From Kineosporia succinea (lineage in GTDB: Bacteria > Actinomycetota > Actinomycetes > Actinomycetales > Kineosporiaceae), in NCBI RefSeq assembly GCF_030811555.1, contig NZ_JAUSQZ010000001.1:2539241-2603240 (forward strand): 64,000 nt of DNA, in the 5' to 3' direction. The notes beneath the pieces are model-generated. The model was not told the origin of the DNA. It searched no databases and worked only from the letters and a program-made list of their open reading frames with translations. Shown piece after piece: positions 28,168 through 63,023 of the stretch. Both the position numbers and the translations under genes were made by a program. Each line of letters opens with the position of its first letter. Within the stretch, counting starts at the first letter, position 1.

Positions 28168-28449
28168 GGCCCGCCGGGCCTCGGCCTCCTCGGCCGCCCG
28201 CTTGGCCTCCGTCTCGGCGGCGGTCTGGGCGGCCTCCCGGGCCTCGGCCTCGTCCTTCTCCTCCCACTCCTGCTCGTAGCGCTTGACCAGCCCCAGGATC
28301 AGGGCGGCGCCGACCGAGCAGAGCACGGCCACGACGAGCCAGCGCACGAGCGCGGTGAAGCCGTCGAGACCGCCGCTCGCATACTGCGCATAGAGCGGCG
28401 GTCCCGCCAGCACGGCCGCGACGGCGCAGCCGATCACCAGGGGATTCAC
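28156..28449 (-). CDS. Small membrane protein with charged helical tail
   Basis: 97 residues from GTG at 28449, which overlaps the stop of the upstream giant gene as GTGA; a longer start at 28482 is possible but less economical. Two membrane spans (VNPLVIGCAVAAVLAGPPLY and LVRWLVVAVLCSVGAALILGL) are followed by a cytoplasmic tail of Glu, Ala, Lys and Arg (about 60-97) that should be a coiled coil. I do not recognise a family. Its position as the last gene of the flhA unit and the translational coupling suggest a link to the flagellar apparatus; this is inference. Confidence 0.7.
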   Translation of the reverse strand: MNPLVIGCAVAAVLAGPPLYAQYASGGLDGFTALVRWLVVAVLCSVGAALILGLVKRYEQEWEEKDEAEAREAAQTAAETEAKRAAEEAEARRASAG

Positions 28450-31400
28450 GAGGTTGCGCCACCCACCGCGAGCTGGGTGCACAGGAGGGCGGCCCAGCCG
28501 ACCCGGTCGACGGCGATCCCGTCGACCCGGACCACCGGCAGACCCAGCTGCAGCACCTCGGCCGGAGCACCGGAGTCCAGTGCACCGTCCAGGGCGACAG
28601 CGTCGACCTTGCCGAGATACCGCACCCAGCGCTGGTTCTCCTCCAGCGACCGGCTGCCGTCGAGCACGGCGATCACGGCCTCCGCACCCACGTTCTGCAG
28701 AACCTTGCGGATCTTGCCGGCGTCCTCGGTGCGGGCACCGTCGACCGGGATGCTGACCACCACGGGACGCGTGGCGGCCGCGAGGTCCATCGCGCCACTG
28801 CGCTCCGGGCCCAGTTCGTGCGGGACGGTGACGACCGTGCGCGGCCCGCCGTTGTGCGGCAGGTCGAGCGCGGTGCGGGCGGCCTCCAGGCCGACGATGT
28901 CCGACGGACCGACCACGGCGATCACCTCGACGTCATCGGCGATCGTCGGCTCGGGCATCGCTCCCAGCATCTGCACGACGGCCATGAACCGGTCTCCAGA
29001 GGGGAGATTGGCGGTCCATTCGGCCGGCACACCGAGGGTGTTGAGCGCAGCCCGGTCGGCGGCGACGGCCTGCTCCGCGGCGGCCTGAAGATCGGCCTCG
29101 GTCGGCAGTGTCGGCGCCGGGACGCTCTCGACCGGCACGAACGGCGATTCCGTCGCCGGGAAGCCGATGCTCGCTCCCGCCTCGGGCAGAGGCAGGGGGG
29201 CGAGCGGGCTTTCGATCGCGGGGTTCACGTCAATGGTGGACGCGGTGGTCGCCTCCGGGGACACCGGGGGTTCCGGGTCGGGCTGGAAGGCCCAGGCGGT
29301 GACCGGTTCCTCGGCGGCGGGCATCGCGAGACCGGGCGTTGCGAGACCGGGGGTCTCGAGGGCGGGTGTTGCGAAGTCGGGCGTCGTGAGGTCAGGCGCC
29401 GCGTAGTCGGGTGATGCGACGATCGGTGCCGAGGGGCTAGGTGTTTCGATGGCGGGGGCCGCGAAACCGGGGGCCGCGAAACCGGGTGCGGCGAAGCCGG
29501 GGACCTGGAAGTCGTCGGCCGGGAACGAACCCGGGGTGGGCTCGGGGGAGCCGGTGTGACCGGCGTCCTCCATCGGGTTCGGGAGCGGGGGAGCGAAGCC
29601 CGGGGTGGACTCGGCGACCGGGGCTTCGGCGACCGGGGCTTCGGTGACCGGGGTCTCGGTGACCGGGGTCTCGGCGACCGGCACGGCCCAGGCGGCCATG
29701 GCCTCGGCGGGGGAGGCCCAGCTGGAGGCGGGACCCTCGTCGGGGAGGCCGGGCGCCGGGGCGCTGGGGGCGGGCCACTCCGGGCTGTGGTTGGCCGGGG
29801 TGGTGGCCCAGGCCGACGGCGCGCCACCGGAACCCTCGGACACCGGAGCGCTTTCGACCAGCGGAGCGCTGGGCTGAGCGGGCACGAGCGGCTGGGCGGT
29901 GGCGAACTGGGTGTCCTGGTCCACGGTCTGGGTGGAAGCCTGGGGCTCGGGGTGCGTGAGCGTGGCCGTCGGGTGCGAGGCCCGCTCGGCCTCCATCACG
30001 GCCTGGGCGGCGGCGAGTTCACCGGCGGCCGCGGCCGCGCTGGCCCGGGCCGCGACGATCTCCCAGGCGGGCGGCTCTTCGAGAGCCGCTTCGCTGGACG
30101 CCTCGACCCGCGGCGCCGGGATACCCGCGATCGCCGCGCTGCTGGTCTCGTCCTGCTCGGGGGCCGGCGGGTTGAGAGGAGTCACCGGGGCGACGTCCTC
30201 GTCCTTGGGCTCGTCCTTGCTCTTGGCCTTCTTGCGGCCACCGAAGCGGATGCCGAACACCTTGAAACCACCGGCGTTCTCGGCCTCATTCTCGCTCTTG
30301 TCGTCGGTCGAGGCCTCGGTGTCGGACGCGGTCGCGCTGACGACGGCGGCCGCGTCCTCGGTGACATCGTCGGGCGAGCCCAGGGTCGGGTCGGTGTTCG
30401 GGCCGGTGTGACGAGCGCTGGTGCGCTCACGCCGCGGCCGGTGACGACCCGCGTCCTCGGCAGGCGCCGGCTCGACCGCCGGGGTGATCGTCTCCTCGCT
30501 CTGACGGGGCGCCGGAACGGTCTTCTTGGAGCCCTTGGTGCGCCGCGTCTTGCCCTTGGGCAGCACGGTGGTCGCCCGGGTCGAGGTGGCGGGGAGCTCG
30601 GTCAGATCCGTCAGCTCGGCCAGATCACCAGGGACGGAAACGTTCTGGGCCTGGGCGGCGGATGTCGCCGCGTATTCCGTTGCGTCGGTGGCGGACACGG
30701 GCGAGCTGAACTGCGGTGCGCCGAAGGAAGAATCGGTCGATCCGAACGACGAGGTGTTGCTCTCGGTCGAACCGAACGGCGTGGACCCGAACGGCGTTGA
30801 CCCGAACGGCGTGGACCCGAAGGAGGACTCGAGGGTCTCGGGCGAGCTGAACGAGGGCGTCGTGAACTCGGGAGCGGCCGGCTCGGGCGTGGTGAACTGC
30901 GGCGTGGCGAACTGCGACGTCGCGAACTCGGAAGACGCAGGCCCAGAAGAGACAGGCCCGGAAGAGACCGGCTCGGAGGACGCCGCCTCGGAAGGCGTGG
31001 CCGGGGAAGACATGGTCTCGGAAGACATGGTCTCCGGAGCGACGAGACCGGGCACCGTGAAGTCGGAAGTGGTCTCCAGCTGCGGCATCTCGGCCGCAGG
31101 CGGTTCCGCACCGAACGCCGGCGCGGCCTCGTACGTGGCGAGACGCGGCGTCTCGGCGGCGAAGGAAGGACTTCCGGCGTAAGGAGACTCGGCCCCCGCG
31201 AGCCCCGGGATCCCGGTCTCGTCGGTGCCGGGCGTGCCGAAGCCGGCCGTCCCGGAACCAGCCGCGCCGAAGGCGGACGTGGCGAGATCCGCAGTGCCGA
31301 AGCCGGGCGGGGTGGGTTCGACGGTGCCGAAGCCAGGCGTGGCGGTCTCATCGGTGCCGAAGCCAGGCGCAGCGGTTTCAGCAGTGCCGAAGCCAGGCGT

Positions 31401-34400
31401 GGCCGGTTCGGGCGTGGCGGGTTCAGTGGTGCCGATGCCGGGCGCAGCGAGCTCGGGAGTGCCGAATCCGGGCCATGCCGACTCGGGAGCGCCGAAGGTG
31501 ACCGGTGCGGTGTCGCTGGCCGCGGCGTCCGCCGTGCCGAACTCGGGGGCCTGGAACTCGGGCGTCCCGAAGCTGGGCGCGCTGAACTCGGGCTCACCGG
31601 ATTCAGGCGAACCGTGCCCAGACGTGCTGAACCCGGGCGTGCTGAAACCGGGAGTCGTGAACTCCGGCGCGGCGAGCCGCGGCGTCTCCTCGGAGGTCGT
31701 GAACGGCTCGGTGCCGGGGACGGTGCTGGTCACAGCGTCCGTCCCGGGGTCCGTGGCGTGGTCGGTGCTGTGGTCCGTGCTGTAGTCCGCGCCGAAGGCC
31801 GGCGCCCCCCAGAGCTGTGAAGCATCCCCGTTCCCACTGGTCGGCGCCGGGTCTCCGGCGGTCTCGGCCCATCCCCCGATGGGTGTGGCGGTGTCGCTCG
31901 GGTCGTCGGCCGGGGTGCCCAGGGCTCCCGGGAAACTCCAGTCGACGGACGCCTCGGGTACCTCGTTCGGCGTCGCGGTCGGGCCGGTCGGGTCGGCCCA
32001 CTTGGCGATCAGGTCGGCCTCGATCTCCGGCGGGCCCGGGATCGACGCGGCGAAAGGCGTCACGGTCGGCGCGGAGGCCTCCGGCTCGGCGGGCGCACCG
32101 CTGTCCGCGTCGGCGAGGGACGCGTCGGTGTCCTGCGCAGTGTCCGAGGGCGTCCGGGCAGGGTCGTCCTCACGTCCGCGGCCGGACCCACCGGAGCGGG
32201 CCTTGGGCGGAAGCGGGAGAAGCTTCGGAATGTCCCTCACCGGAGAAGGATCGGAAGGAACGCCACCGGTGTTGAGGGGCATCGAGCCGCCGTTGTGCGG
32301 AGGTTGTCCCCCGAACGGCGGTTGATCCGTGGTTTCCACCCGGATGCCGGGCAGCGAGTCGGTCATCAGGCCGCCCGGCAACGGTGCCTTGCGCGGGCTG
32401 CGCCGGCTGGCGGGCAGCATCAGGTCCGTGCCGGACTCGCGGCGCGGCGTGTTCTTGCGGCCGCGCGAGCGGGCCCACGCCGGACGCAGTCCGCTGAAGT
32501 CCAGCTCCGCCTCGCTCGCGGCGGTGGTGAGGTCGAGCGGGACCGGCGCGAGCTCGGTGGCCGGACGCTCGGCGTCCGCGACATCGGCCGGGATCGTCGT
32601 GTGGGTGAGCTCGGGCAGCGTTTCCGCGTCGTCGAGCCCGGGAGCGGCGGTGAGGTCGGCGAGCTCGGGCGCCGGGGCGTCGTGACTGAGTTCGGGTGAG
32701 CTGCTTGCGGACGCGTCGGTCCCCGCTCCCTCGCCCCCGACGGTTCCCGGGTGGGCGCCGTGGCGGCGGCGCGGCTTGGTGCGCGCGTTCGGGGCGGATG
32801 ACTGCTCGTCCGCCCGGGTGACGTCCGCCCGGGTGACGTCGGGCCGGGGCGCCGGCTGCTCCGTCGCGGCGGCTTCGATCACCTTCGGCATCTCGACGGT
32901 GTCGGCCGTCTTGTCCACGGCCGGCCGGGTGGTGGCCGGCTGGGGGGCGGCCTCCTCGGACTCCGGGACCAGCGACTCGAACTCGGCGGCCAGGTCGGCG
33001 GCGTCGGGATCGTCGGTGACGGCGATCTCGGCCAGGGCGTCGGCGTCGGCCGTGCCCAGGTCAGCGGCTGTGGCGGTCGGGTCGGCGTCGATCGGGCCCG
33101 TGGCGGCCGGGCTCATGGCGATCGGGCGGGTGGGAGCGGACGTCGTGCCGCTGACCGGAGCCTTGGCGTGCTTCGCGTGCTTGGGGGTCGAGTCGGCGGG
33201 GGCGTCCACTTCGGCAGTGTCTGCAATGGACGCGTCCGACTCCGGGAGCGTGCGCACGGACGCGGGCGTGTTCACCCGGTTGCCGTGCTCAGGCTGCTCG
33301 CTCGGGGCGATCGCGTCGAGGGGTTCCTCGTCGTCGGCGAACACCGCCTCGATCTCGTCGGCGAAGTCCTCGTCGGCGAAGCCCTCGGCCGTGAACTCCT
33401 CGTCGAGGAAATCCTCGTCCGCGGTGTCCTCGCCCGTCGCGCGCTCGACCGGGGCGTCCGTGAGCTCTTCGACCACGGCGTCCTCGACCACGACGTCACT
33501 GTCGGCCGCGGTCTCGGCGACCACGGCGTCCTCCATCGCGTCGTTGTCGACCCCGCCGTCCGAAGCGGTGGCGTCGAAGACCGCGTGTCCTTCGACCAGC
33601 GTGTCCAGGCCCGGTGCGTCCTCGACCGGACCGGCCGCTTCGGTGACGGACGGGGTCGGGGCGACCGCGGCGTCCTCAGGCACCGGGTTCTGATCGAGCT
33701 CGGCGGACTTCTTCTTCGCCTCGGCCGTGCGCTTGCGGGCAGCGGCCTTCGCCGCCTTGGCCTTCGCCGTGCGCGCCGCCTTGGCCGCGCGCTCGAGCCG
33801 GATCTCCTCGGCCCGCGCGGCGATCCGGGCCTCGCGGGCCTCGGCCTCCTCGGCCGCCCGGCGGGCCGCCTCCTGCTCGAGGTCGGCCGGCTCGGCGGGC
33901 AGAGCCGCCGGGGCAGCGGGCGAGGGAGGGGTGAATCCGGCGAACTCCTCGTCCCAGTCGTCCCATTCGGCCTCGTCCCAGGCAAAGCTGTTGGGACCGG
34001 CGGGCCGGGGCGGCGGAAGGTCGCGGCCCAGGGGCGTACGGCGGTCGGACGGGTGGCCAGCACCCAGGTTGCGCACCGACGACGGGTCGAGCGGGGGCCG
34101 GGCGGCGGGAAAGCCTCCGGCGCCGAGGATCTCGGCCAGGTCGAGGGTCTCGCGGACCTCGTCCTGACCGTACGGGTCGAACGACGGGCCGCGGGTGTCG
34201 CGGTGGTGCGCGTCCTGGATCGGCATCCGCTCGTCCGAGGCCATGGCGGCCTCGAACGCGGCCTGCCGGGCCATCGCCAGCGCGGCGGCCTTCTCGATCG
34301 ACTCGCCGTTGCCGCCACCGGCCTGCTGGGCCAGGTTGAGCAGGTCGCGGTGACCGGAACGGGGCAGACGGGGCGGGGCCGGGCGCTGGGCGCGGGCCAG

Positions 34401-34631
34401 GCGGTCGGCCCGGTCGTCGGACCCGGGACGGTCGGCGAGCTTCAGCTCGTCCTCGTCGTCGAGACCTCCGGGCACCTCGACGGCGACCTCGAAGCCCTCC
34501 TTCGCGAAGAACCCGAGAACACCTCCCCGGCGCACCTTCTCGGCCCGGACGATACGGGCGAACGGACCACCCTCGCGACGCGCCCGGATGAGCAGCGCCT
34601 CGAGGTCGTCACCTTCAAGCAGCAAATTCAT
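28446..34631 (-). CDS. Giant FlhF-like flagellar protein with low-complexity FG/TP repeats
   Basis: 2061 residues from ATG at 34631, overlapping the flhA stop by 17 bases, in the position where flhF normally sits. Residues 1-60 (DDLEALLIRARREGGPFARI, then GGVLGFFAKEGFEVAVEV) resemble the FlhF N-terminal B domain. Residues about 250-310 are a charged Ala/Lys/Arg helix and 330-500 are strongly acidic. Residues about 970-1330 hold repeats such as PGFGT, PEFTTPSF and four tandem FGSTP-type units; residues about 1690-1780 hold PGFAA and PDFAT repeats. The last 200 residues form a compact domain (IAVVGPSDIVGLEAART near 1900, then AVIAVLDGSRS and AVALDGALDSGAPAEVLQLGLPVVRVDG) co-linear with the FlhF SRP-type GTPase but without the GKT/S of a Walker A motif. 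It may be an inactive FlhF used as a scaffold for flagellar placement. The homology is my reading of short motifs. Confidence 0.7.
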   Translation of the reverse strand: MNLLLEGDDLEALLIRARREGGPFARIVRAEKVRRGGVLGFFAKEGFEVAVEVPGGLDDEDELKLADRPGSDDRADRLARAQRPAPPRLPRSGHRDLLNLAQQAGGGNGESIEKAAALAMARQAAFEAAMASDERMPIQDAHHRDTRGPSFDPYGQDEVRETLDLAEILGAGGFPAARPPLDPSSVRNLGAGHPSDRRTPLGRDLPPPRPAGPNSFAWDEAEWDDWDEEFAGFTPPSPAAPAALPAEPADLEQEAARRAAEEAEAREARIAARAEEIRLERAAKAARTAKAKAAKAAARKRTAEAKKKSAELDQNPVPEDAAVAPTPSVTEAAGPVEDAPGLDTLVEGHAVFDATASDGGVDNDAMEDAVVAETAADSDVVVEDAVVEELTDAPVERATGEDTADEDFLDEEFTAEGFADEDFADEIEAVFADDEEPLDAIAPSEQPEHGNRVNTPASVRTLPESDASIADTAEVDAPADSTPKHAKHAKAPVSGTTSAPTRPIAMSPAATGPIDADPTATAADLGTADADALAEIAVTDDPDAADLAAEFESLVPESEEAAPQPATTRPAVDKTADTVEMPKVIEAAATEQPAPRPDVTRADVTRADEQSSAPNARTKPRRRHGAHPGTVGGEGAGTDASASSSPELSHDAPAPELADLTAAPGLDDAETLPELTHTTIPADVADAERPATELAPVPLDLTTAASEAELDFSGLRPAWARSRGRKNTPRRESGTDLMLPASRRSPRKAPLPGGLMTDSLPGIRVETTDQPPFGGQPPHNGGSMPLNTGGVPSDPSPVRDIPKLLPLPPKARSGGSGRGREDDPARTPSDTAQDTDASLADADSGAPAEPEASAPTVTPFAASIPGPPEIEADLIAKWADPTGPTATPNEVPEASVDWSFPGALGTPADDPSDTATPIGGWAETAGDPAPTSGNGDASQLWGAPAFGADYSTDHSTDHATDPGTDAVTSTVPGTEPFTTSEETPRLAAPEFTTPGFSTPGFSTSGHGSPESGEPEFSAPSFGTPEFQAPEFGTADAAASDTAPVTFGAPESAWPGFGTPELAAPGIGTTEPATPEPATPGFGTAETAAPGFGTDETATPGFGTVEPTPPGFGTADLATSAFGAAGSGTAGFGTPGTDETGIPGLAGAESPYAGSPSFAAETPRLATYEAAPAFGAEPPAAEMPQLETTSDFTVPGLVAPETMSSETMSSPATPSEAASSEPVSSGPVSSGPASSEFATSQFATPQFTTPEPAAPEFTTPSFSSPETLESSFGSTPFGSTPFGSTPFGSTESNTSSFGSTDSSFGAPQFSSPVSATDATEYAATSAAQAQNVSVPGDLAELTDLTELPATSTRATTVLPKGKTRRTKGSKKTVPAPRQSEETITPAVEPAPAEDAGRHRPRRERTSARHTGPNTDPTLGSPDDVTEDAAAVVSATASDTEASTDDKSENEAENAGGFKVFGIRFGGRKKAKSKDEPKDEDVAPVTPLNPPAPEQDETSSAAIAGIPAPRVEASSEAALEEPPAWEIVAARASAAAAAGELAAAQAVMEAERASHPTATLTHPEPQASTQTVDQDTQFATAQPLVPAQPSAPLVESAPVSEGSGGAPSAWATTPANHSPEWPAPSAPAPGLPDEGPASSWASPAEAMAAWAVPVAETPVTETPVTEAPVAEAPVAESTPGFAPPLPNPMEDAGHTGSPEPTPGSFPADDFQVPGFAAPGFAAPGFAAPAIETPSPSAPIVASPDYAAPDLTTPDFATPALETPGLATPGLAMPAAEEPVTAWAFQPDPEPPVSPEATTASTIDVNPAIESPLAPLPLPEAGASIGFPATESPFVPVESVPAPTLPTEADLQAAAEQAVAADRAALNTLGVPAEWTANLPSGDRFMAVVQMLGAMPEPTIADDVEVIAVVGPSDIVGLEAARTALDLPHNGGPRTVVTVPHELGPERSGAMDLAAATRPVVVSIPVDGARTEDAGKIRKVLQNVGAEAVIAVLDGSRSLEENQRWVRYLGKVDAVALDGALDSGAPAEVLQLGLPVVRVDGIAVDRVGWAALLCTQLAVGGATS
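30773..30823. repeat. 15-bp tandem repeats coding for FGSTP units
   Basis: The + strand repeats GAACGG-CGT(G/T)GACCC about three and a half times with a 15-bp period (coding on the - strand for FGSTP). This is the most regular part of a wider repeat region (about 30700-31700) within the giant FlhF-like gene and a likely site of length variation. Confidence 0.75.
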
Positions 34632-36690
34632 GACTACTACTCACCTGTCCGACGGTCTCGATCTGGTGAATGCCGGTCGCCTCGGTGAAGGCGATGACGG
34701 GAAGCTGGGGCAGCGAACCGCGCAGCAAGCGCCGCAACGGAAGCCGCAGGGGCCCGGAGATCAGCAGGACCGGCAGCTCACCACGTTGTTCCGCGGTGGT
34801 CTGCAGGGCCGAGATGTCCGAGACCAGACGCTGGGCCTGGATCGGGTCGAGCGCGATGACCACGCCCTGTTCCGAGGCACGTAGCGCCTCGCCGATCTGG
34901 GTCTCGACGGCGGGCTCGAGGGTGATGGCCCTCAGCACTCCGTCGCGGACGTACTGGGCGGCCAGGGCCGGGCCGAGCGCGGCCCGGGCGGCCTCGAGCA
35001 GGGCATCCGGGTCCTGGGTGGTGCGGGCCCGCTGGCCGACACCTTCCAGCACCCGGCCCAGGTCGCGGATCGAGACCTGCTCGTCGAGCAGCGCCTGCAG
35101 CAGACGCTGCACCGCCGAGAGCGGCAGCACCCCGGGCACGAGCTCCTCGACCGCGGCGGGCCGGTCGCTCTTGAGCACCTCGAGCAGCTCGCGGGTGTCG
35201 TCGAGGCTGAGAAGCCGGGACGCGTTCTGCCGCACCATCTCGGCGAGGTGGGTGGTGACCACGGCGGCTCGTTCGACGATCGTGGCGCCGGCCAGCTCGG
35301 CCGAGGCCCGGTACTCGATCGGGACCCAGACCGCGGGCAGGCCGAAGACCGGCTCCGTGGTGTGGCGTCCGGGCAGCCCGTCCATCGAGTCGCCGATCGC
35401 CAGCAGGCATCCGGGAGGTGCCTCGCCGGTGGCCACGCTGCTGCCACCGATGCGGATCTCGTAGGTGCCGGGCGCCAGCATGGCGCCGTCCCGGGTACGC
35501 ACCGGCGGGAGCACCAGGCCCAGGTCGAGCGCGGTCTTGCGGCGCAGGGCCCGCACCCGGTCGAGCAGGTCGCCGCCGCGGGCCGTGTCGACCAGGTCGA
35601 CGGCGTCGGGGGACAGGAGGAGCTCGAGCGGGTCGACCCGCAGCGAGTCGGTGACCGGGTCGCTGCTGCCGCCCGGACCGGGCAGGGCCACCTGGCCGGA
35701 GGGCATCGCGATGGCACCGGAGGCCGCCGCCGTCTCGGCCTGCCCCTCCTCGGCCAGGTCGGTGGAACGGAAGGCCGCGAACATCACGAGCCCGCCGACG
35801 ATCAGGAACGGGATCTTCGGCATGCCCGGGATCAGGCACAGGGCCAGCAGCGAGCCGCCGCCGATCATCAGGGCCTGACGGTGCCGGCCGAGCTGCTTGA
35901 TCAGGTCGGAGCCGACGTCGCCGGCCCCGGTCGAGCGGGTCACGATGACACCGGTCGCGACGGACATCAGCAGGGCCGGGATCTGCGAGACCAGGCCGTC
36001 ACCGACGCTCAGGAGGCTGTAGGTCTGGATCGCCTCACCGGCCGGCATGCCCTTCTGCAGCATGCCGATCGCGAAACCACCGATCAGGTTGACCAGGGTG
36101 ATGATCACCGCGGCCATGGCGTCGCCCTTGACGAACTTGGTACCACCGTCCATGGCGCCGTAGAAGTCCGCCTCGGCCGCGACGTCCTTGCGTCGCTGGC
36201 GGGCGGTGTCCTCGTCGATCAGGCCGGAGTTCAGGTCGGCGTCGATCGCCATCTGCTTGCCGGGCATCGCGTCGAGGGTGAAGCGGGCCCCGACCTCGGC
36301 GACGCGGGAGGCACCGTTGGTGACCACGGTCAGCTGGATGATGATCAGGATCGCGAAGATGACCAGACCGATGATCAGGTTGGCCCCGATCACGATGTGG
36401 CCGAACGCGTCGATCACGTGGCCGGCGAAGCCGTCTCGCAGCACCAGCCGGGTGGAGCTGACGTTCAGCGCCAGCCGGAAGATCGTCGCGACCAGCACGA
36501 TCGTCGGGAAGATGGCGAAGTCGAGCACTCGCTGCACCTGCAGCGCGACCAGCAGCACGATCAGGCTGATGCCGATGTTGAGCGCGATCAGGACGTCGAG
36601 GAGGGCGGCCGGCAACGGCACGACCATCATGAGGACGACGATCACGATCGCGATGGGTACAGCGATACGGGTCATCCGGTTGGACGGCAC
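34615..36690 (-). CDS. flhA: Flagellar export gate protein FlhA
   Basis: 691 residues from GTG at 36690, chosen because GGAGG lies 9 bases upstream; ATG at 36675 would give 686. FlhA forms the nonameric ring of the type III export gate. The N-terminal half has eight membrane spans, beginning IAVPIAIVIVVLMMVVPLP. The FHIPEP signature region (VGARFTLDAMPGKQMAIDADLNSG, then DEDTARQRRKDVAAEADFYGAMDG) is present between spans. The C-terminal half is the cytoplasmic domain that receives chaperone-substrate complexes. Full length. It is separated from flhB by a surface-protein/sortase unit and overlaps the downstream FlhF-like gene. It has its own upstream region of about 550 bp. Confidence 0.96.
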   Translation of the reverse strand: MPSNRMTRIAVPIAIVIVVLMMVVPLPAALLDVLIALNIGISLIVLLVALQVQRVLDFAIFPTIVLVATIFRLALNVSSTRLVLRDGFAGHVIDAFGHIVIGANLIIGLVIFAILIIIQLTVVTNGASRVAEVGARFTLDAMPGKQMAIDADLNSGLIDEDTARQRRKDVAAEADFYGAMDGGTKFVKGDAMAAVIITLVNLIGGFAIGMLQKGMPAGEAIQTYSLLSVGDGLVSQIPALLMSVATGVIVTRSTGAGDVGSDLIKQLGRHRQALMIGGGSLLALCLIPGMPKIPFLIVGGLVMFAAFRSTDLAEEGQAETAAASGAIAMPSGQVALPGPGGSSDPVTDSLRVDPLELLLSPDAVDLVDTARGGDLLDRVRALRRKTALDLGLVLPPVRTRDGAMLAPGTYEIRIGGSSVATGEAPPGCLLAIGDSMDGLPGRHTTEPVFGLPAVWVPIEYRASAELAGATIVERAAVVTTHLAEMVRQNASRLLSLDDTRELLEVLKSDRPAAVEELVPGVLPLSAVQRLLQALLDEQVSIRDLGRVLEGVGQRARTTQDPDALLEAARAALGPALAAQYVRDGVLRAITLEPAVETQIGEALRASEQGVVIALDPIQAQRLVSDISALQTTAEQRGELPVLLISGPLRLPLRRLLRGSLPQLPVIAFTEATGIHQIETVGQVSSSHEFAA

Positions 36691-37502: not shown

Positions 37503-38138
37503 CTAGCTCCGGGCGGGCGTGCTGCGAATCAACTGGGCGTGCACGTACAGTCGCTCCCTGGCCGAGAACTCGGGGTGACAGGTGGTCAGTGTCAGCCAGG
37601 CGCGTCCTCTCGCCGTTTTCTGCTCCACCACCGAGATGTCCGACGGATCGGTGACCCCCTCGTCCACCACCGCGTAGTCGAACCGCCCGCGGGCCGTCCA
37701 CACGCTGATCTCGTCACCCCGCGTCAGCTCGTCGATGTGCTTGAACGGGGCGCCCCAGGTGGTGCGGTGCCCGGCCAGGCCGACGTTGCCCCGGCGGCCG
37801 GGCTCCGGGCTGCCCTTGTAGAGGCCCAGGCCCTGCCTGAGGATCTCGGTGCCGGTTCCGGACTCCACCGGCATCCGCCAGTCCCGGCCCAGTTTCGGGA
37901 TCTTCACGACCGCCACCACCGGCCCGGCCACACCCTTCGGGATCACCGCGGTCTCGGGTCCCTTCCCGATGGGGGACGTCCAGGCTTCCGTTGCGCGGTC
38001 GGCGAGACCGTGTGCGGCGGTGCGGGCCTTCCAGTTGGTCCACCACCAGCCGCCACCGACGCCGGCCGTCAGCAGAACGCCGACGGCCAGGGCCGCAAAA
38101 GCGATGAGGCGGACCCGCGATCCGCGGGTCCGCCCCAT
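37503..38138 (-). CDS. Class E-type sortase
   Basis: 211 residues from ATG at 38138, with AGGAG 8 bases upstream; earlier in-frame starts at 38147 and 38144 sit on the RBS itself. One N-terminal membrane span (VRLIAFAALAVGVLLTAGVGGGWWW) acts as a signal anchor, and the catalytic domain faces outward. Active-site residues are visible: His in GLAGHRTTW, Cys in TLTTCHPEF and Arg in ARERLYVHAQL. The TLTTC pattern and actinobacterial setting fit class E sortases, which prefer LAXTG signals. The gene 45 bp upstream on the same strand encodes a large protein with an LAFTG signal, the obvious substrate. Confidence 0.92.
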   Translation of the reverse strand: MGRTRGSRVRLIAFAALAVGVLLTAGVGGGWWWTNWKARTAAHGLADRATEAWTSPIGKGPETAVIPKGVAGPVVAVVKIPKLGRDWRMPVESGTGTEILRQGLGLYKGSPEPGRRGNVGLAGHRTTWGAPFKHIDELTRGDEISVWTARGRFDYAVVDEGVTDPSDISVVEQKTARGRAWLTLTTCHPEFSARERLYVHAQLIRSTPARS

Positions 38139-38183
38139 CGACATCACTCCTGCATCCTTTCGGTTTCTCTCAGCGAGCGGCGG

Positions 38184-41100
38184 TTACGCCACGTCGTCGG
38201 GGTGGTCGGGCTGCTCGCGGTGCTGACCCTCGTGCGGGTCCAGCCCGGTGCCGAGCAGGCCGGCCGGCATCAGCTGACGGCCTTCCTCGTCGGTCGCCGC
38301 CCGGGCACCCCGGCGCGTCCGCAGACGCTCGGCGCCGAGCAGGCCGCCACCGACCACCATCAGCAGCAGGCCCAGGGCCAGGCCCGGGATCAGCAGCAGC
38401 GGGGTACCGGTGAAGGCCAGACCGCCACCGGTGTCGTTGCCGCCGCTCCCGTCGGTGCCGCTGCCGTCGCCGTCGCCGGAGTTGTTGCCGCTCCCGTCGC
38501 CGGTTCCGGTGCCGTCGCCGTCGCCGGAGTCGTTGCCGCCGTCGTCACCGGTGCCGGTGCCGCCCTCCTCGACGACCGTCACGTTCACGGTCTGCTCGGA
38601 TTCCTGACCGATGTCGTCGGTCACCGACATCACGAAGGTGTCCTCACCCTCGGTGTCACCCGCGGTGTAGACGCAGCTCTTGGCGCTCGAGGAGATCTCG
38701 ACCGAGCCGGTTCCGTCCGGCGTGCTGCAGGCGGTGACCTCGAGGCCCGAGTAGTCCGGGCCCTTCGGGGCGATCGCCTTGGTGGCGCCGACCTCGACCT
38801 CGGTCTCGATCGTCGCGGTCGCGGCGAGCACCGGGATGAAGGTGAACGACTCCAGGAAGCTGATCGATCCGGCGGAGTTGGTCACGGTCACCGTGGTGGG
38901 CCCACCGGCGTGCGGCGGGGTGGTCACCTCGACGCTGTTGGAGGCCGCGGCCTTCCAGTTGCCGACCGCCTTACCGGCCATCGCCGGCTTGTAGAGGACG
39001 GCCTTGGCGGCCTTGGCACTGCGGGCCTTGAAGTCGCGGTCCTTCGTCGACTTCCTGACGGCTGACGCCGAGCCCACCTTCGGGTCGTCGACGTCGGGCC
39101 AGAGCTGCAGGTCGGTGCCCTCCACCCCGTCGAAGCTGACGGTGGTGGCGGCGTCGAACCCGGTACCGGTGATCGTGACCCGGGTGCCCCCGGCGACCGG
39201 ACCCACGTTCGGGGTCAGCCCCTGCACCGTCGGCAGCCCGGAGAGCGGCACGTAGGTGAACAGGTACGACCGGCTGTTGCCCTGCGTGTTGCGCAGCAGG
39301 ACCGCGATGCCACCGGCCGCGTGCGGCGGCGTCTTGACCGTCAGCGTGGTGTCGTCCACGACCGACAGGTCGGTGCCCGCCGTGCCGTCGAACGTGACCC
39401 GGTCGACGGTCTGCAGGCCGATGCCCTTGAAGACCACCGTGGTGCCACCGACGGTCGGGCCGCTGCGCGGCGTCATCGTGTCGAGCACCGGCACGCTGTT
39501 CGCCGCGACGTAGGTGAACGTCGCGTCACCGGCCGTGCTGCTGCCCACCGGCGTGGTCAGGATGACGTCGACCGCCCCGGCCGCGTGCGCCGGGCTGGTC
39601 ACGATCACCGTGGTGGTGTTGATGACCCGGATGTTCGTGGCCGGGGTGCCCCCGAAGGTGACGCCCGAGGTCAGGAGCAGGCCGGTGCCGTAGATGGTGA
39701 CGTCCGTGCCACCGGCGATCGGCCCGACGCTGGGCACCAGGGTGGTGACGGTCGGCGACAGGTTGAGCGGGAGGTAGGTGAAGAGCGCGGTGCTGGTGCT
39801 CTGGATCCCACCCGGGCCGACGATCGTCAGCGTCGCCAGACCGGTCGCGTGCGACGGGCTGGTGACGGTGATCTGCGTGCCGGCGCCGTTGACGCTGAAC
39901 GCGGTGCCGGGAGTCGAGTCGAAGCGGACCCCGGTGGCGCCGGTGAAGCCGGTGCCGGTGATGGTCACCACGGTGCCGCCGCTGGTCGGACCCGAGATCG
40001 GCGAGATGCCGGTGATCTGGCCGTCGAAGGCGACGTACTCGTAGTTGAGCGTCACGATGCCGCCCGCGGTGGCGATGATCACCGGGACGACCCCGTCGGT
40101 CAGGCCGGACGGCATCGGGAAGGTGAGCGTGGTGTCACCCGTCACCGTGTAGTTGGTGACGACCTTCGCCCCCACCGTCAGCGCCAGGATCGAGCTGAAG
40201 CCGGTGCCGGTGATGGTGACCGTGTTGCCGCCCTGGATCGGGCCGGTCGTCGGGCTCACCGTGGCGGCGCCGGCCGCGGTCGGGGTGTAGATGAACGTGC
40301 CCGGTGTGAGTGCGGCACCACCGGTGCCCGAGAGGGTCACCAGGTAGGCGCCCGCCGTGTTGGCCGGGGTGTCGAACTTGATCTGTGTGGCCGAGCCACC
40401 CGCCTTGGGCGTGGTGGTCTTGGTGCCGACCTGGATGCTCGTGACCGTGTCCAGGCCGGTGCCGGTGATCGTCACCTCGGTGCCGCCGGTGACCGGGCCG
40501 GTGAGCGGGCTGATCCCGGTCACGGCCGCGACGGCGTTGTAGGTGAAGTTCGACGCGGTGCTGGTGACCCCGCCGGTCCGGACGGTGAAGGCCTGGTTCC
40601 CGGGAAGTCCCGGCGGCGTGGTGAACCGCAGCGTCGTGCCGTTGACGTACGTGGTGGTCAACGGGATCGCGGTGCCCCCGGTGCCCCAGTAGACGACGGA
40701 CGAGCTGGTGTAGTTGGTGCCCGTCAGCGTCACCTCGGTGCCGCCGGACGCCGGGCCGTTGGTCGGGGCGATGGTCCCGATCGTGGGCGTGGCGGCGTTG
40801 TAGGTGAACGTGCTGTTGACGTTGACCAGGCTGGTTCCGCTCGCGTTGGTGACGACCACCGGAACCGTGCCGGGGGCGTCACCTGCCGGGGTGACGAACG
40901 ACAGCGTGGTCAGGGTCGGGGTACCGGTCACCGTCGCCGGCTTGCCCCCGACGGTGACGGTGTTGCCGCTCGTCAGGAAGACACCGGTGAGGTTGACCGT
41001 GGTACCGCCGGCCAGCGGGCCGTTGTCCGGGGCGACGGTCAGAATGGCCGTCAGACCCGGAACCGGAACCGCGGGAACCGGTGTGGCGTAGAAGAACGAG

Positions 41101-42926
41101 CCGGCCAGGGCGTCACCGTTCGGGCTGAGCACGGTCACCGGAGCCGCCCCGGCCGCGTGTGCCGGAGAGGTCACGGTGATCTGCGTCCCGGCGCCGTTGA
41201 CGCTGAAGGCCGTTCCGTTCGTCGTGTCGAACCGCACGCCGGTGGCTCCGGTGAAACCGGTGCCGGTGATGGTGACGACGTCGCCACCCGCGGTCGAACC
41301 CGTCAGCGGGGAGATCCCCGTGACGACCGGCGGCAGGGCGGTGTAGGTGAAGGTCTGCGCGGTCGACGTGGTCGAGCCCCGCTTCACCGTGACCTGCGCG
41401 GTGCCCGTGCCGGCCGGCGCGACCGCGGTCAGCTTGGTCGGGCTCACGTAGGTCGTGGCCTGCGCGTTGGCATCGAACTGGATCACCGAGTCCGTGGTGA
41501 AGCCGGTACCGGTCGCGGTGACCGTGGTGCCGCCGGTGATCGGACCCGTGGCCGGGCTGATGCCGGTGAGGCTCAGCGCGTCCTGGTAGGTGTAGACGCT
41601 CGCGGCCGACTGGGCCGACGTCCCACCGCTGGTGGTCACCGTGACGAATACGGTGCCGGTGCCCGAGGGCGCGGTGGCGGTGATCTGGGTCGGGCTGTTC
41701 ACCGTGACGGAGGTGGCGTTCGTGTTACCGAACTTCACCGTCGGCGAGCCGGTGAAACCGGTCCCCGTGATGACCACCGAGGTGGTGCCGCCGGGCGGCC
41801 CGGTCGATGGATTCACGTTCGTCACCGTCGGCGCACCGACGTAGGTGAAGGTGTTCGTGCCCGTGTTCGTGCCGCCGGTGGTGCCGGGGGTCGTCACGGT
41901 CACGTTCTGCGCGCCGGTGCCCGCGGGGGCGACGGCGGTGATCTTCGTGGTGCTGTCGATCGAGTACGTGGCCTCGGTCGAGCCGAACTTCACCGAGGAC
42001 GTGCCCCGGAAGTTGGTGCCGGTGATGACCACCGAGGTACCGCCCGAGGTCGGGCCGGTGGTCGGCGCGATGCTGCTGACCGTGGGCACGAGGGCGTCGG
42101 TGGTGGAGCACTCGGTGTGCCCAGCGATGACGTCGCCGGTGCCGACCGCGTCGAGCAGCCCGCCGTTGCCGCCGAGCTTCAGGTGCAGGGCGTTGACGAC
42201 CAGCTTGGTCTTGCCGCCGACCGTCGTCCTCGTCTGCTCGTTCAGGGTCAGCGTGCCCAGGCCGAGCACGTTGACGACCGTGTTCGCGGCCGGCTGTTCC
42301 GGCGTGGAGTTCAGCACGCCGGAGAGCTTCAGGCCGGTGACGGTGGAGGTGGCGGTCACGCCCGCGGCGGTGCCGGTGCACTGCGACGAGATCAGGTCCG
42401 CCGAGACACCCTGCAGCCCCAGCGAGGTGCCGAGGCCGAGGCCGTCGACCGCGGCCGTCGCGTTCGCGGTGTCCTTGAGGTCGTCACCCGTGGCGGTCGT
42501 GGTGGCGGTACCGCTGCTGAGCAGACCGGGCACACCCACGTTCGCCGTGGTGGCCTGGGCCGGTCCGGCCGGCCAGTCCGACTTGGGGGTCTCCTGGGTG
42601 CCGATGGTGGCGCCGAGGAGCTTCACGTTGGCGAACAACCCGTAGGACGAGGCGGCGGTGGAACCGTCCGCCGTGGCCTTGAAGTCCTTCTTCTTGAGCT
42701 TGCCCTTCGACCCCGTCGACGGCTTCCCCACCGCCGGCTGGGCGGTCAGGACGGTGCCCGTCTGGGGTGCCGCCGACGCGGTGGCGGCCATGAGAGGCAG
42801 GCCACCGCCGGCGACGAGGAGGCCGGCGACGACCTGCGCAACCCCTCGTCTGTGCCGGAAACGGGTACGGCCGCCGAAAAGCGGCCCCCCGTCCGGGCTC
42901 GTACTGTTCCTGAACAAGACGTGCAT
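38184..42926 (-). CDS. Sortase-anchored surface protein with 12 IPT/TIG repeats
   Basis: 1580 residues from ATG at 42926. An N-terminal signal peptide with Arg-rich start (RTRFRHRRGVAQVVAGLLVA, cleavage near ATASA) is followed by a domain of about 230 residues of unknown type. I count 12 IPT/TIG Ig-like repeats of about 82-88 residues, each starting like VTGISPLTGPTSGGT, containing VTITGTGF and ending FTY. Repeats 4 and 9 are nearly identical; repeat 12 carries a Lys/Ala-rich insert of about 40 residues. Then come a short beta domain with two Cys, a Gly/Asp/Ser linker, and a C-terminal wall-sorting signal: LAFTG, hydrophobic span, RLRTRRGAR. It is probably displayed on peptidoglycan as an adhesin or receptor. 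It sits between flhB and flhA, with its sortase 45 bp downstream. Confidence 0.9.
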   Translation of the reverse strand: MHVLFRNSTSPDGGPLFGGRTRFRHRRGVAQVVAGLLVAGGGLPLMAATASAAPQTGTVLTAQPAVGKPSTGSKGKLKKKDFKATADGSTAASSYGLFANVKLLGATIGTQETPKSDWPAGPAQATTANVGVPGLLSSGTATTTATGDDLKDTANATAAVDGLGLGTSLGLQGVSADLISSQCTGTAAGVTATSTVTGLKLSGVLNSTPEQPAANTVVNVLGLGTLTLNEQTRTTVGGKTKLVVNALHLKLGGNGGLLDAVGTGDVIAGHTECSTTDALVPTVSSIAPTTGPTSGGTSVVITGTNFRGTSSVKFGSTEATYSIDSTTKITAVAPAGTGAQNVTVTTPGTTGGTNTGTNTFTYVGAPTVTNVNPSTGPPGGTTSVVITGTGFTGSPTVKFGNTNATSVTVNSPTQITATAPSGTGTVFVTVTTSGGTSAQSAASVYTYQDALSLTGISPATGPITGGTTVTATGTGFTTDSVIQFDANAQATTYVSPTKLTAVAPAGTGTAQVTVKRGSTTSTAQTFTYTALPPVVTGISPLTGSTAGGDVVTITGTGFTGATGVRFDTTNGTAFSVNGAGTQITVTSPAHAAGAAPVTVLSPNGDALAGSFFYATPVPAVPVPGLTAILTVAPDNGPLAGGTTVNLTGVFLTSGNTVTVGGKPATVTGTPTLTTLSFVTPAGDAPGTVPVVVTNASGTSLVNVNSTFTYNAATPTIGTIAPTNGPASGGTEVTLTGTNYTSSSVVYWGTGGTAIPLTTTYVNGTTLRFTTPPGLPGNQAFTVRTGGVTSTASNFTYNAVAAVTGISPLTGPVTGGTEVTITGTGLDTVTSIQVGTKTTTPKAGGSATQIKFDTPANTAGAYLVTLSGTGGAALTPGTFIYTPTAAGAATVSPTTGPIQGGNTVTITGTGFSSILALTVGAKVVTNYTVTGDTTLTFPMPSGLTDGVVPVIIATAGGIVTLNYEYVAFDGQITGISPISGPTSGGTVVTITGTGFTGATGVRFDSTPGTAFSVNGAGTQITVTSPSHATGLATLTIVGPGGIQSTSTALFTYLPLNLSPTVTTLVPSVGPIAGGTDVTIYGTGLLLTSGVTFGGTPATNIRVINTTTVIVTSPAHAAGAVDVILTTPVGSSTAGDATFTYVAANSVPVLDTMTPRSGPTVGGTTVVFKGIGLQTVDRVTFDGTAGTDLSVVDDTTLTVKTPPHAAGGIAVLLRNTQGNSRSYLFTYVPLSGLPTVQGLTPNVGPVAGGTRVTITGTGFDAATTVSFDGVEGTDLQLWPDVDDPKVGSASAVRKSTKDRDFKARSAKAAKAVLYKPAMAGKAVGNWKAAASNSVEVTTPPHAGGPTTVTVTNSAGSISFLESFTFIPVLAATATIETEVEVGATKAIAPKGPDYSGLEVTACSTPDGTGSVEISSSAKSCVYTAGDTEGEDTFVMSVTDDIGQESEQTVNVTVVEEGGTGTGDDGGNDSGDGDGTGTGDGSGNNSGDGDGSGTDGSGGNDTGGGLAFTGTPLLLIPGLALGLLLMVVGGGLLGAERLRTRRGARAATDEEGRQLMPAGLLGTGLDPHEGQHREQPDHPDDVA

Positions 42927-45344: not shown

Positions 45345-46250
45345 CTAGCGGTAGCTGCCTATCAACGTGGTGACGATCAGCGACCAGCCGTCGACCAGCA
45401 CGAAGAGCAGCAGTTTGAAGGGAAGGGAGACGAGCGCGGGAGGCAGCATGACCATACCCAGCGACATCAGGATCGCGCTGACCACGATGTCGATGACCAG
45501 GAACGGTATGAAGATCACGAACCCGATGATGAACGCGCCGCGCAGCTCGCTGAGCACGAACGCCGGGATCAGCGTGCGGAGTTCGACCGACTCCCGGTTC
45601 TCCGGGTTGGGCAGGTCGGCGGCCCTGGTCATCAGGGCCAGTTCCTCGTCGCGGGTGTGCTTCAGCATGAACTCGCGCAGCGGCTCGCTGCCGGCCCGGT
45701 AGGCCTCGGTGACCGTCATGTCGCCCTTGGAGTAGGGCTGGATGGCGGCCTCGTTGATGGCGTCGGCGGTCGGCCCCATGATGAACAGCGACAGGAAGAG
45801 CGCGAGCCCGACCAGCACCTGGTTCGGCGGGACCGAGGGCGTGCCCAGAGCCTGGCGGGTCAGGGAGAGGACGACGACCAGCTTGGTGAACGACGTGCAC
45901 AGCAGCAGCACCGAGGGTGCCACGCCGATCAGGGTCACCATCAGGATGATGGAGATGACCTGGCTGCGCTGTCCCGGCACGCTGACCGAGACGTCGCTGC
46001 TGTCGTTGGTGTTGTCCAGGTTGGTGGCGAGGACGGGGTTGGCGGCGAGGACGGGGTTGGCGGCGAGAACCGGAGCGCCGAGCGTCGAGACCTGGCTCAC
46101 CGCAACGGGTGCGGCCACACTGGCCTGGGCCGCGGAACCCGGACCGGCGATCTGCAGGAGGCAGAACGCGAGGCCGAGCAGCAGCCCGGCGAGCAGCCGG
46201 TGCGGAGCGCGCAGGCCCTTCCGGAGGGAGGAATGGCCGTTCATGGTCAC
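45345..46250 (-). CDS. fliP: Flagellar export gate protein FliP
   Basis: 301 residues from GTG at 46250, which overlaps the fliO stop by 4 bases. It has a cleavable signal peptide (about 1-42), as is usual for FliP, and then an unusual spacer with the repeat PVLAANPVLAANPVLATN before the first core span. Core motifs: FTKLVVVLSLTRQALGTPSVPPNQVLVGLALFLSLFIMGP, then SELRGAFIIGFVIFIPFLVIDIVVSAILMSLGMVMLPP and PFKLLLFVLVDGW. Five FliP copies form the gate with FliQ and FliR. Confidence 0.96.
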   Translation of the reverse strand: MTMNGHSSLRKGLRAPHRLLAGLLLGLAFCLLQIAGPGSAAQASVAAPVAVSQVSTLGAPVLAANPVLAANPVLATNLDNTNDSSDVSVSVPGQRSQVISIILMVTLIGVAPSVLLLCTSFTKLVVVLSLTRQALGTPSVPPNQVLVGLALFLSLFIMGPTADAINEAAIQPYSKGDMTVTEAYRAGSEPLREFMLKHTRDEELALMTRAADLPNPENRESVELRTLIPAFVLSELRGAFIIGFVIFIPFLVIDIVVSAILMSLGMVMLPPALVSLPFKLLLFVLVDGWSLIVTTLIGSYR

Positions 46251-61321: not shown

Positions 61322-62004
61322 CCGCGCAGCACCTCCTCGGCGGCCGCCAGCGCACCGGGCAGGTCCTGCCGCAGCCGCTGGGTCGGGGTGAGCACGGTGA
61401 CGTCACCGGGGGAGAGTGTGGCGTCCGGTACGACCGTCACACCCTCCACCGCGTCGTCCTCGAGCATCCGGGCGTCGTCCGGGTGCAGGTGCACGACGGT
61501 CTCGTCGGAGGCGCCCACGTGCCGCAGCGCGGAGCGCACGGCGAGCTCGACCTGACCGTCCACCGACTGCAGTTCACGCCCGAGCGCCGCCGCGGCGAGC
61601 TGGAGCGCACCGTCGGTGAGCACGTCGGCGACCTCCTTCCACTGCGGCAGCGTGGCCTCGTGGGCCTGCCGCACCGCGTCGCGCATCGACTGCAGCAGGT
61701 GGTGCACCTGCTGCGTGACCTCGTCGCGGATCCGGGCGTTCTCCTCGTTCATCGAGGCCCGGGCCAGCACGTTCTCCTCGGCCGCGGCCTGCCGGCCCTG
61801 GGCCCAGCCGGCCAGGTACCCCTGGGCCTGGGCCTCCTCGCGGGCCCGGGCGGAGGCCTGGCGGACCATCTCCTCCAGCCGCGGGTCGCCGTACTGCGGG
61901 TCGACCGACGTGCGGTGCAGCGGCCGGTCGAGATTGGCCGGCCGCACCGAGTCGCGGGCCTGCTGCGGGCTGAGGACCGGGCTCGGGCTCTGGCGCAGCG
62001 ACAT
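61318..62004 (-). CDS. fliH: Flagellar export ATPase regulator FliH
   Basis: 228 residues from ATG at 62004 (TGATG junction with fliG, GGTGGAG upstream); a GTG one codon earlier is possible. A disordered N-terminus is followed by a long helix with GxxxG-like/Ala-rich spacing (ARAREEAQAQGYLAGWAQGRQAAAEEN) and a C-terminal V-ATPase E-subunit-like domain (LQLAAAALGRELQSVDGQVELAVRSALRHV, then VVHLHPDDARML). It tethers FliI to the C-ring. Supported by position as well as sequence. Confidence 0.9.
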   Translation of the reverse strand: MSLRQSPSPVLSPQQARDSVRPANLDRPLHRTSVDPQYGDPRLEEMVRQASARAREEAQAQGYLAGWAQGRQAAAEENVLARASMNEENARIRDEVTQQVHHLLQSMRDAVRQAHEATLPQWKEVADVLTDGALQLAAAALGRELQSVDGQVELAVRSALRHVGASDETVVHLHPDDARMLEDDAVEGVTVVPDATLSPGDVTVLTPTQRLRQDLPGALAAAEEVLRG

Positions 62005-63023
62005 CACTCCACCATCGCGTCGTCGTCGGAGCGCTGGATGAGGATCTGACCGGTCTGCTCGAGGGCCCGGATCTCCTGGACCACCTTGGCCTGGGCCTCC
62101 TCGACCTGCTTGATGCGCACGGCACCGAGGAGGTCGATCTCCTCGACCAGGTTCTCGGCGGCCCGGGCGGACAGGTTGCGGGTGATCTTCTCCTTGACCA
62201 TCGGGCTGACGCCCTTGAGGGCCAGGGCCAGGTCGCCGCTCTCCACGTTGCGCAGCACCAGCTGGATCGCCTTGTCGTCGAGCGTGAGGATGTCCTCGAA
62301 GATGAACATCTGGGCCCGGACGGTCTCGGCCAGGTCCTGGTCGACGGTCTCCAGCCCTTCCAGGATCATGCGCTCGGTGGAGCGGTCGGCGCGGTTGATG
62401 ATGGCCACCAGGGGCTCCACACCACCCACGGTCGACATCTCCTGCGGGCCCAGCACGGTGGTCATGCGGCGCTCGAGTTCCCGCTCCACCAGACGGATCA
62501 CGTCCGGGCTGGCGGGCTCCATCGAGGCGATCCGGTAGGCCACCTTGGCCTGCAGGCTCTGGTCCAGGCCGGACAGCACCACCGCGGACTGCTGCGGTGC
62601 CAGGTGGGCCAGGACCAGGGCGATGGTCTGCGGGTGCTCGTCGGCGAGGAACGAGAGCAGCTGCCGGGCGTCGGCCCGGCGGATGCCCTCGAACGGCATC
62701 TCGGCCAGGGAGGCGCCGAGGCGCTCCATGATCTCCTCGGCCCGGTCGCTGCCGAGGCTCTGCGCCAGCAGCTGACGGGCGAGGTCCATACCGCCCCGGG
62801 ACCCGGACTGGGCCGCGAGGTTGTCGTGGGCCTCCGAGAGCACGGCCTCGGCGTCGATCGCGCTGACCTCTTTGAGGCGCACGATCTCCCCGGTGAGCTC
62901 CTCGACGATGTCCTCGGGGAGCAGGCCCATGATCCGGGCCGCCTTCTCCTGGCCCAGCTGGACCAGGAAGATGGCGGCCTTGCGGATACCGGTGAGCGGC
63001 TCGTTCGCGGTTGCGAGTGCCAT
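62004..63023 (-). CDS. fliG: Flagellar motor switch protein FliG
   Basis: 339 residues from ATG at 63023. N-terminal domain LTGIRKAAIFLVQLGQEKAARIMGLL binds FliF; the middle domain has the EHPQTIALVLAHL motif (FliM binding); the C-terminal domain has MFIFEDILTLDDKAIQLVLRNV and the charged ridge (RNVESGDLALALKGVSPMVKEKITRNLSARAAENLVEEID) that meets MotA. It rotates with the MS-ring and sets the direction. Lies 6 bp after fliF. Full length. Confidence 0.97.
   Translation of the reverse strand: MALATANEPLTGIRKAAIFLVQLGQEKAARIMGLLPEDIVEELTGEIVRLKEVSAIDAEAVLSEAHDNLAAQSGSRGGMDLARQLLAQSLGSDRAEEIMERLGASLAEMPFEGIRRADARQLLSFLADEHPQTIALVLAHLAPQQSAVVLSGLDQSLQAKVAYRIASMEPASPDVIRLVERELERRMTTVLGPQEMSTVGGVEPLVAIINRADRSTERMILEGLETVDQDLAETVRAQMFIFEDILTLDDKAIQLVLRNVESGDLALALKGVSPMVKEKITRNLSARAAENLVEEIDLLGAVRIKQVEEAQAKVVQEIRALEQTGQILIQRSDDDAMVE

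Follow-up and report, generated by a model that had tools for sequence, protein, structure and literature searches.

The window, a stretch of 64,000 nucleotides of Kineosporia succinea DNA, encodes directly after flhA a protein of 2061 residues, which we regard, with a probability of about 0.6, as a descendant of FlhF that, in the function we infer for it, no longer depends on GTP and serves FliG/C-ring assembly as a scaffold or tether, acting through its FliG-interaction domain (FID). The gene, its parts and two flagellar genes of the same window are as follows.

28446..34631, minus strand: whole ORF, giant gene of 2061 aa in the flhF position, a putative FlhF-derived pseudo-GTPase with a giant linker
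34615..36690, minus strand: flhA, directly upstream of the giant ORF (FHIPEP, 3e-238; 36690 is no called start codon)
62004..63023, minus strand: fliG, whose product is the partner that the FID is expected to bind (FliG_N/M/C, Pfam)
34464..34631, minus strand: predicted homologue of the FlhF FID, residues 1-56 (TIGR03499, profile-profile comparison)
29076..34463, minus strand: low-complexity linker of about 1,795 residues, predicted to be probably disordered (composition, tandem repeats)
28449..29075, minus strand: pseudo-NG domain, residues 1853-2061, predicted SRP-type GTPase fold without G1, G3 and G4 (AF2, Foldseek, VIA, profile)
28878..28916, minus strand: position of G1 (P-loop) without GK[ST], VVGPSDIVGLEAA, residues 1906-1918 (motif inspection)

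The gene and its terminal domains

The 2061-residue ORF is confirmed as a real gene. It starts with ATG, its translation in the window shows no internal stop over 2061 aa, and the GC content at third positions is 0.81-0.94 in all 11 blocks (ten blocks of 200 codons and one of 61-62). The orthologous frames are open in the five other Kineosporia genomes, and an internal stop was found in none of the six Kineosporia frames of 1876-2371 aa. As the earlier note on this DNA had described, the gene occupies the flhF position on the minus strand, and its start (34631) overlaps the flhA stop (34615) by 17 bases. The order flhA-flhF is a common one, and the window protein shares with the FlhF GTPases a gene adjoining flhA. 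On the same strand, the window also has genes that match FliF (C-terminal part), FliG, FliH, FliI, FliJ, FliK, FlgD, FlgE, FlbD, MotA, MotB, FliL, FliM, FliN, FliO, FliP, FliQ, FliR and FlhB.

Between flhB and flhA (37503-42926, minus strand), there are a sortase gene and a gene whose 1580-aa product has 13 IPT/TIG repeats and, at its C-terminus, LAFTG, which we take to be a sorting-like signal. The sortase was found in all five other Kineosporia loci and in none of six other-family loci, only two of which (L026 and L031) reach flhB.

The N-terminus of the protein (...GGVLGFFAKEGFEVAV) is, as judged from sequence profiles, a homologue of the FID. In FlhF of Shewanella putrefaciens, the first 44-60 residues are described as a small, structured FliG-binding domain (PMC11236974, in excerpt), and it is this N-terminal part that the profile recognizes in the window protein. 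When the first 110 residues were compared with TIGR03499, the match had an E-value of 3.4e-4 and 20.7 bits, below the curated cut-off of 174 bits. The profile of the N-domain (32 rows of relatives) was then compared with a profile of canonical FlhF (17 rows), which gave a probability of 98.4 and an E-value of 1e-14 over 50 columns with 28% identity. The FlhF-like N-terminus of the earlier note is thus upheld. In whole-genome searches, several relatives matched TIGR03499 from position 7, in the same frame as the C-domain, with E-values down to 4e-11. AF2 modelled the N-domain poorly (pLDDT 54.5), and a fold search with the resulting model gave no match at an E-value of 0.001. The N-domain profile, when searched against PDB sequences, found three engineered proteins and one weak match. 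The N-domains of the genus are 83-92% identical to that of the window protein; over the family, column identity averages 72% (10 rows).

The C-domain is, on the basis of its model and its profile, an SRP/FlhF-type NG domain without G1, G3 and G4. Its AF2 model, built from three sequences, was of moderate quality (pLDDT 68.7, pTM 0.66). The best 49 PDB matches by Foldseek were chains that belong to entries for SRP54/Ffh and SRalpha/FtsY, and GTPases of the SRP system made up 50 of 50 among the matches listed by VIA (Z 11.5-12.9). The VIA comparison with two FlhF structures gave Z 12.5 and an rmsd of 4.8 over 200 aligned residues for 8r9r, and Z 11.7 and an rmsd of 4.9 over 197 for 2px3. The model therefore folds as an SRP GTPase and not as something unrelated, and the window protein appears to have the NG fold that characterizes FlhF GTPases. 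Since the Z values were tied for Ffh, FtsY and FlhF, the fold alone left the SRP GTPase ancestor undecided.

Profile comparison pointed to FlhF. The C-domain profile (37 rows) matched the FlhF NG profile (17 rows) with a probability of 94.8 over 184 columns, and a control with the reversed alignment gave 0.1. The probability against Ffh (3 rows) or FtsY (10 rows) was about 41, with small profiles whose sequences had been sorted by a crude motif rule. Ffh and FtsY share the NG fold with the C-domain, whereas they lack a FID, and two strong SRP54 GTPases are found separately in the window genome (SRP54 matches there: two strong and four weak). Searches of Pfam, NCBIfam and PDB with the C-domain sequence gave nothing useful (best PDB E-value, 0.13); the homology is visible to fold and profile-profile methods, without a plain sequence match. 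Within the genus, the C-domain is 71-87% identical to that of the window protein, and over the family its column identity averages 65% (12 rows).

The motifs were defined as GxxxxGK[ST] for G1, D[TS][AP]G for G3 and [TN]KxD for G4. None of the three was present in any of the 43 relatives, the window protein included, even when SKxD was allowed as G4; seven of the 43 (L028, L030, L042, L046, L097, L098 and L099) are incomplete at a contig or locus end or are without one domain. By contrast, all 17 FlhF sequences used for comparison, 15 above the TIGR03499 cut-off and two (L074 and L075) below it, have G1, G3 and TKxD. The earlier note had recognized a degenerate GTPase in the C-domain, which agrees with these results, and had proposed that GTP binding was lost and that the protein became a scaffold. 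The motifs are indeed absent and a scaffold remains the best inference; since the loss is common to 43 of 43 class members collected, however, it is not an event of the window protein alone.

Distribution in the Actinomycetes and loss of FlhG

The C-domain was found in 12 of the 13 genomes of the family. In the class, the family profile matched at least 27 of 394 genomes, 26 without the spurious match L058 (genome G286), which was dropped because the frame has no FID and the genome no FlhA match; the class counts are lower bounds (at most eight candidates were scored per genome). All 26 genomes belong to the 51 class genomes with FlhA, and the FID is present in 25 of them, the exception being G035. 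Examination of the DNA after flhA in the remaining 25 FlhA genomes revealed both domains in three more (L091, L092 and L093), a FID without an NG domain at an E-value of 1e-3 in L097 (NG E-value 0.029) and L099 (no NG match), and a borderline FID at a contig end in L098 (E-value 3.3e-4 to 0.0012). The survey of flhA neighbours that the earlier note had suggested thus found the same gene in 31-32 of the 51 FlhA-positive class genomes. The form is thus not confined to the window genome; what is special to Kineosporia, judged from these sequences, is the linker. In the other 19 of the 51 genomes, no such gene was found after flhA, and flagella can apparently be built there without it, a point against the scaffold reading. 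In many of the loci without it (L100-L113, mostly of family f35), inspection by eye showed after flhA a frame of about 90-105 aa with the look of two hydrophobic helices.

By coordinates, 25 of the 26 genes matched in the class lie directly after flhA, G035 being split across contigs. This constant place, together with the start that overlaps the flhA stop, would fit a protein that acts on FlhA instead of FliG, for example as a platform between chaperones and the export gate. The flhA-flhF order is, however, common in any case and needs no new contact, and the FID, with FliG, is the sole domain that has a published partner. An export-gate role, which the earlier note had raised as a possibility and for which gene order is the whole basis, seems to us very unlikely.

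No canonical FlhF above the TIGR03499 cut-off was found in any of the 37 genomes with the pseudo-form, the window genome included; a separate canonical flhF, which the earlier note had named as a refutation of its reading, was thus not found. In a phylum sample of 396 genomes, 38 of them class members, 15 were above the cut-off, all outside the class, and the FID profile matched 44. Thirty loci from among these 44 were inspected for the motifs: four have G1, G3 and G4; one incomplete locus has G1 and G3; five retain G1 but not the G3 pattern, and G4 reads SKxD in four of the five; and 20, of which six are incomplete and two belong to the class, have none. A group of ten FID loci outside the class (L119, L120, L124, L126, L128, L135, L136, L138, L140 and L141, from families f57, f76, f80, f82 and f88, f72-like loci excluded) was considered as further pseudo-NG proteins and rejected: the C-terminal part gave a probability of 0.1 against the canonical domain and 20.5 against the class pseudo-NG.

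FlhG is the activator of FlhF. In all 15 canonical loci L059-L073, the frame after flhF contains DQAxxLR, and KGGVGK was confirmed in the seven that were checked. No DQAxxLR frame was seen in L074, L075 or the flanks, of varying length, of the pseudo-FlhF loci. In genome-wide searches, the FlhG profile matched seven of seven genomes with canonical FlhF at an E-value of 1e-135 or better; the 30 pseudo-FlhF genomes tested (of 37), and G477 and G596 as well, gave 8e-15 or weaker. We read matches at this level as generic ParA/MinD proteins. No FlhG partner was found for the window protein, the best E-value in G000 being 1.4e-12. L074 and L075, from G477 and G596, have an FlhF with an intact P-loop in a genome without an FlhG match, possibly an intermediate state, which suggests that FlhG may have been lost before the P-loop.

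Proposed role and relation to known FlhF

The window protein resembles FlhF of S. putrefaciens and other bacteria in domain order (FID, linker, NG), in its place after flhA, in the homology of the FID and in the NG fold. It differs in the absence of G1, G3 and G4, in an FlhG partner that was not found and in the linker of about 1,795 residues. The canonical FlhF proteins L059-L073, from other members of the same phylum, the Actinomycetota, share FID and NG with it, whereas all 15 have G1, G3 and G4, the DQAxxLR frame next door and a length of 386-457 aa.

If the protein is a scaffold, its FID would still bind FliG by analogy with Shewanella FlhF, and the FliG-bound FID would tether or time the assembly of the MS-ring and C-ring. 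The pseudo-NG domain might then play a passive part, in docking, perhaps to a marker of the site, or in dimer formation, and the on-off control by GTP and FlhG would have been dropped. The FID appears from the sequences to be the better-kept part of the family protein, since L097 and L099 keep the FID with no NG match at 1e-3 and the mean column identity is 72% for the FID and 65% for the NG domain. In Shewanella, the NG domain of FlhF binds the landmark HubP, according to the part of PMC11236974 at hand, and this binding is described as GTP-independent in a later paper (PMC12713375, in excerpt). An NG domain without GTP could therefore, by analogy, still dock. The same excerpt of PMC12713375 states that in Pseudomonas aeruginosa the FlhF-FliG complex is stabilized by GTP binding; a GTP-less form might thus bind FliG differently, which counts against the scaffold reading.

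A 2023 survey reported, in the portion available, that the non-FlgFG actinobacterial classes are without FlhF (PMC10746217); the legend of its Fig. 6 gives this group as Acidimicrobiia, Nitriliruptoria and Actinomycetia, and Kineosporia belongs to the last. The available portion of a review from 2025 on how FlhF evolved (PMC12826062) contains no word beginning with actino-. Among the open-licence papers searched on FlhF, including those on actinobacteria and Actinoplanes, we found no earlier report of a degenerate or pseudo-GTPase form of FlhF.

The present analysis suggests that swimming actinobacteria reported to be FlhF-less carry a hidden relative without GTP-binding motifs. The placement of flagella is commonly explained by the nucleotide switch of FlhF and FlhG. 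In many flagellated Actinomycetes, the predicted FliG-binding end and, usually, a motif-less GTPase fold persist and FlhG is gone; the tethering part of FlhF would thus have been separated from its switch part in nature. Whether the number and position of flagella can be set without a GTPase cycle would thereby become testable.

The linker in Kineosporia

The Kineosporia form would represent an extreme growth of the linker around conserved islands. The linker measures 1596-2092 residues in Kineosporia, 189-753 in other members of the family and 105-405 in the rest of the class (31 of 37 frames measured, six frames below 350 aa left out; L028 and L042 are incomplete, at a contig end and a locus end, respectively). 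In the full L042 gene, from G402, the linker is about 720 residues long. The linker is rich in Ala, Pro, Thr and Ser; that of the window protein has 18.3% A, 13.6% P, 9.8% T and 16% D+E, and so matches the long Pro/Ala/Thr- and FG-rich linker with acidic residues of the earlier note. Disorder of the Kineosporia linker is likely from its sequence, although in the charge-hydropathy analysis only two of six linkers were on the disordered side, all near the line, and the window linker was only just on that side. The features of the window linker are listed below.

30744..31811, minus strand: F-rich region, residues 941-1296, with its phenylalanines mostly in a 5-residue (15-bp) register and with many FG motifs (F register, tandem repeats)
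34209..34304, minus strand: conserved island 1, residues 110-141, ALAMARQAAFEAAMASDER
34110..34202, minus strand: conserved island 2, residues 144-174, RGPSFDPYGQDEVRETLDLAEIL; diverged in L025
33753..33839, minus strand: conserved island 3, residues 265-293, basic, helix-like
32451..32516, minus strand: conserved island 4, residues 706-727, ELDFSGLRPAWAR
32163..32378, minus strand: conserved island 5, residues 752-823, ...VRDIPKLLPLPPKARSG
31971..32033, minus strand: conserved island 6, residues 867-887, EADLIAKWADPTGP
30537..30611, minus strand: conserved island 7, residues 1341-1365
30369..30461, minus strand: conserved island 8, residues 1391-1421, GRHRPRRERTSARHTGP; diverged in L023
30213..30275, minus strand: conserved island 9, residues 1453-1473, GGFKVFGIRFGGRKKAKSKD
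29988..30113, minus strand: conserved island 10, residues 1507-1548, PPAWEIVAARASAAAAAGELAAAQAVM
(All ten islands rest on six-species conservation.)

The window linker contains 21 FG and 17 GF dipeptides, against 4.7 expected for each, and none of 1000 composition shuffles reached these numbers. Of the 32 phenylalanines at residues 930-1310, 27 are in one 5-residue register, which agrees with the 15-bp tandem repeats. FG nucleoporins, too, have low-complexity chains that are rich in Pro, Thr and Ser and contain FG dipeptides, and the earlier note had envisaged a nucleoporin-like cohesion by which the FG/GF repeats would drive phase separation and so create a polar or export-gate hub. FG is likewise enriched in three more Kineosporia species (L021, L022 and L023: 17 against 3.3 expected, 8 against 2.5 and 17 against 2.4), four of the six genomes in total. 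It is not enriched, however, in L024 (5 against 2.8) and L025 (2 against 2.0), GF is enriched in the window protein only among the six, and the 25 shorter linkers have 0-3 FG each. The dominant repeat unit is 15 bp in the window, and 48/12, 36/18, 54/27, 18 and 18/36 bp in the five other Kineosporia. Enriched FG is thus not conserved among the orthologues, and since it is found in four of six species only, the nucleoporin-like reading is weak. The context is that of a bacterial flagellum, and the likeness claimed is one of composition. We consider a condensate of this kind improbable.

The most conserved parts of the linker lie outside the repeats and were not mentioned in the earlier note. 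They are ten islands of 21-72 residues, conserved across six Kineosporia species, between in-frame tandem repeats; under the identical rule, shuffled linkers gave no island in eight sets. Tandem repeats make up 13-25% of the Kineosporia linkers; in the domains on either side their share is 0%. To judge from the sequences, the repeats seem to have expanded in frame while the motifs between them stayed fixed, and a docking platform on flexible spacers therefore fits better than a conserved FG gel.

It might also be supposed that the gene is a relic in decay, in which the FlhF function was lost, the leftover drifts and the linker has grown by repeat slippage. The loss of the G motifs and of FlhG, the 19 of 51 FlhA-positive genomes without the gene, the two genomes in which no NG domain was detected and the unlike repeat units of several species could all be read in this way. 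The stop-free frames in six of six Kineosporia, the identities within the genus for both terminal domains, the ten islands and the unchanged place after flhA in 25 of 26 genomes argue against it, and decay is in our judgement unlikely.

In the scaffold reading, which we prefer, the Kineosporia linker would be an assembly platform or a long tether, with about ten islands as putative docking sites on repeat-expanded spacers, and cohesive aromatic repeats may aid clustering in some species. A broader version is tentative and, to us, rather doubtful: FlhF would have been converted in the Actinomycetes from a GTP/FlhG switch to a GTP-independent FID scaffold and, in Kineosporia, to a multi-docking platform of about 1,800 residues, whose aromatic-rich spacers, grown by repeats, would gather the basal bodies at a condensate-like site and thereby pattern the flagella of zoospores.

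Three minor observations may be added. Among the neighbours, tandem repeats cover 0% of flhA, 4% of flhB, 5% of the TIG protein and 9% of FliO. A linker motif of the type STESxSFAxLLxxL, with the core FAxLLxxL, occurs in 27 of 43 relatives, against 1.5 expected from shuffles, and in none of the Kineosporia; we gave it no weight because it was defined post hoc by eye and is absent from Kineosporia. FliO of the window (46247-48187, minus strand) has 646 aa, of which residues 28-118 form the Pfam FliO domain and the remainder a low-complexity tail.
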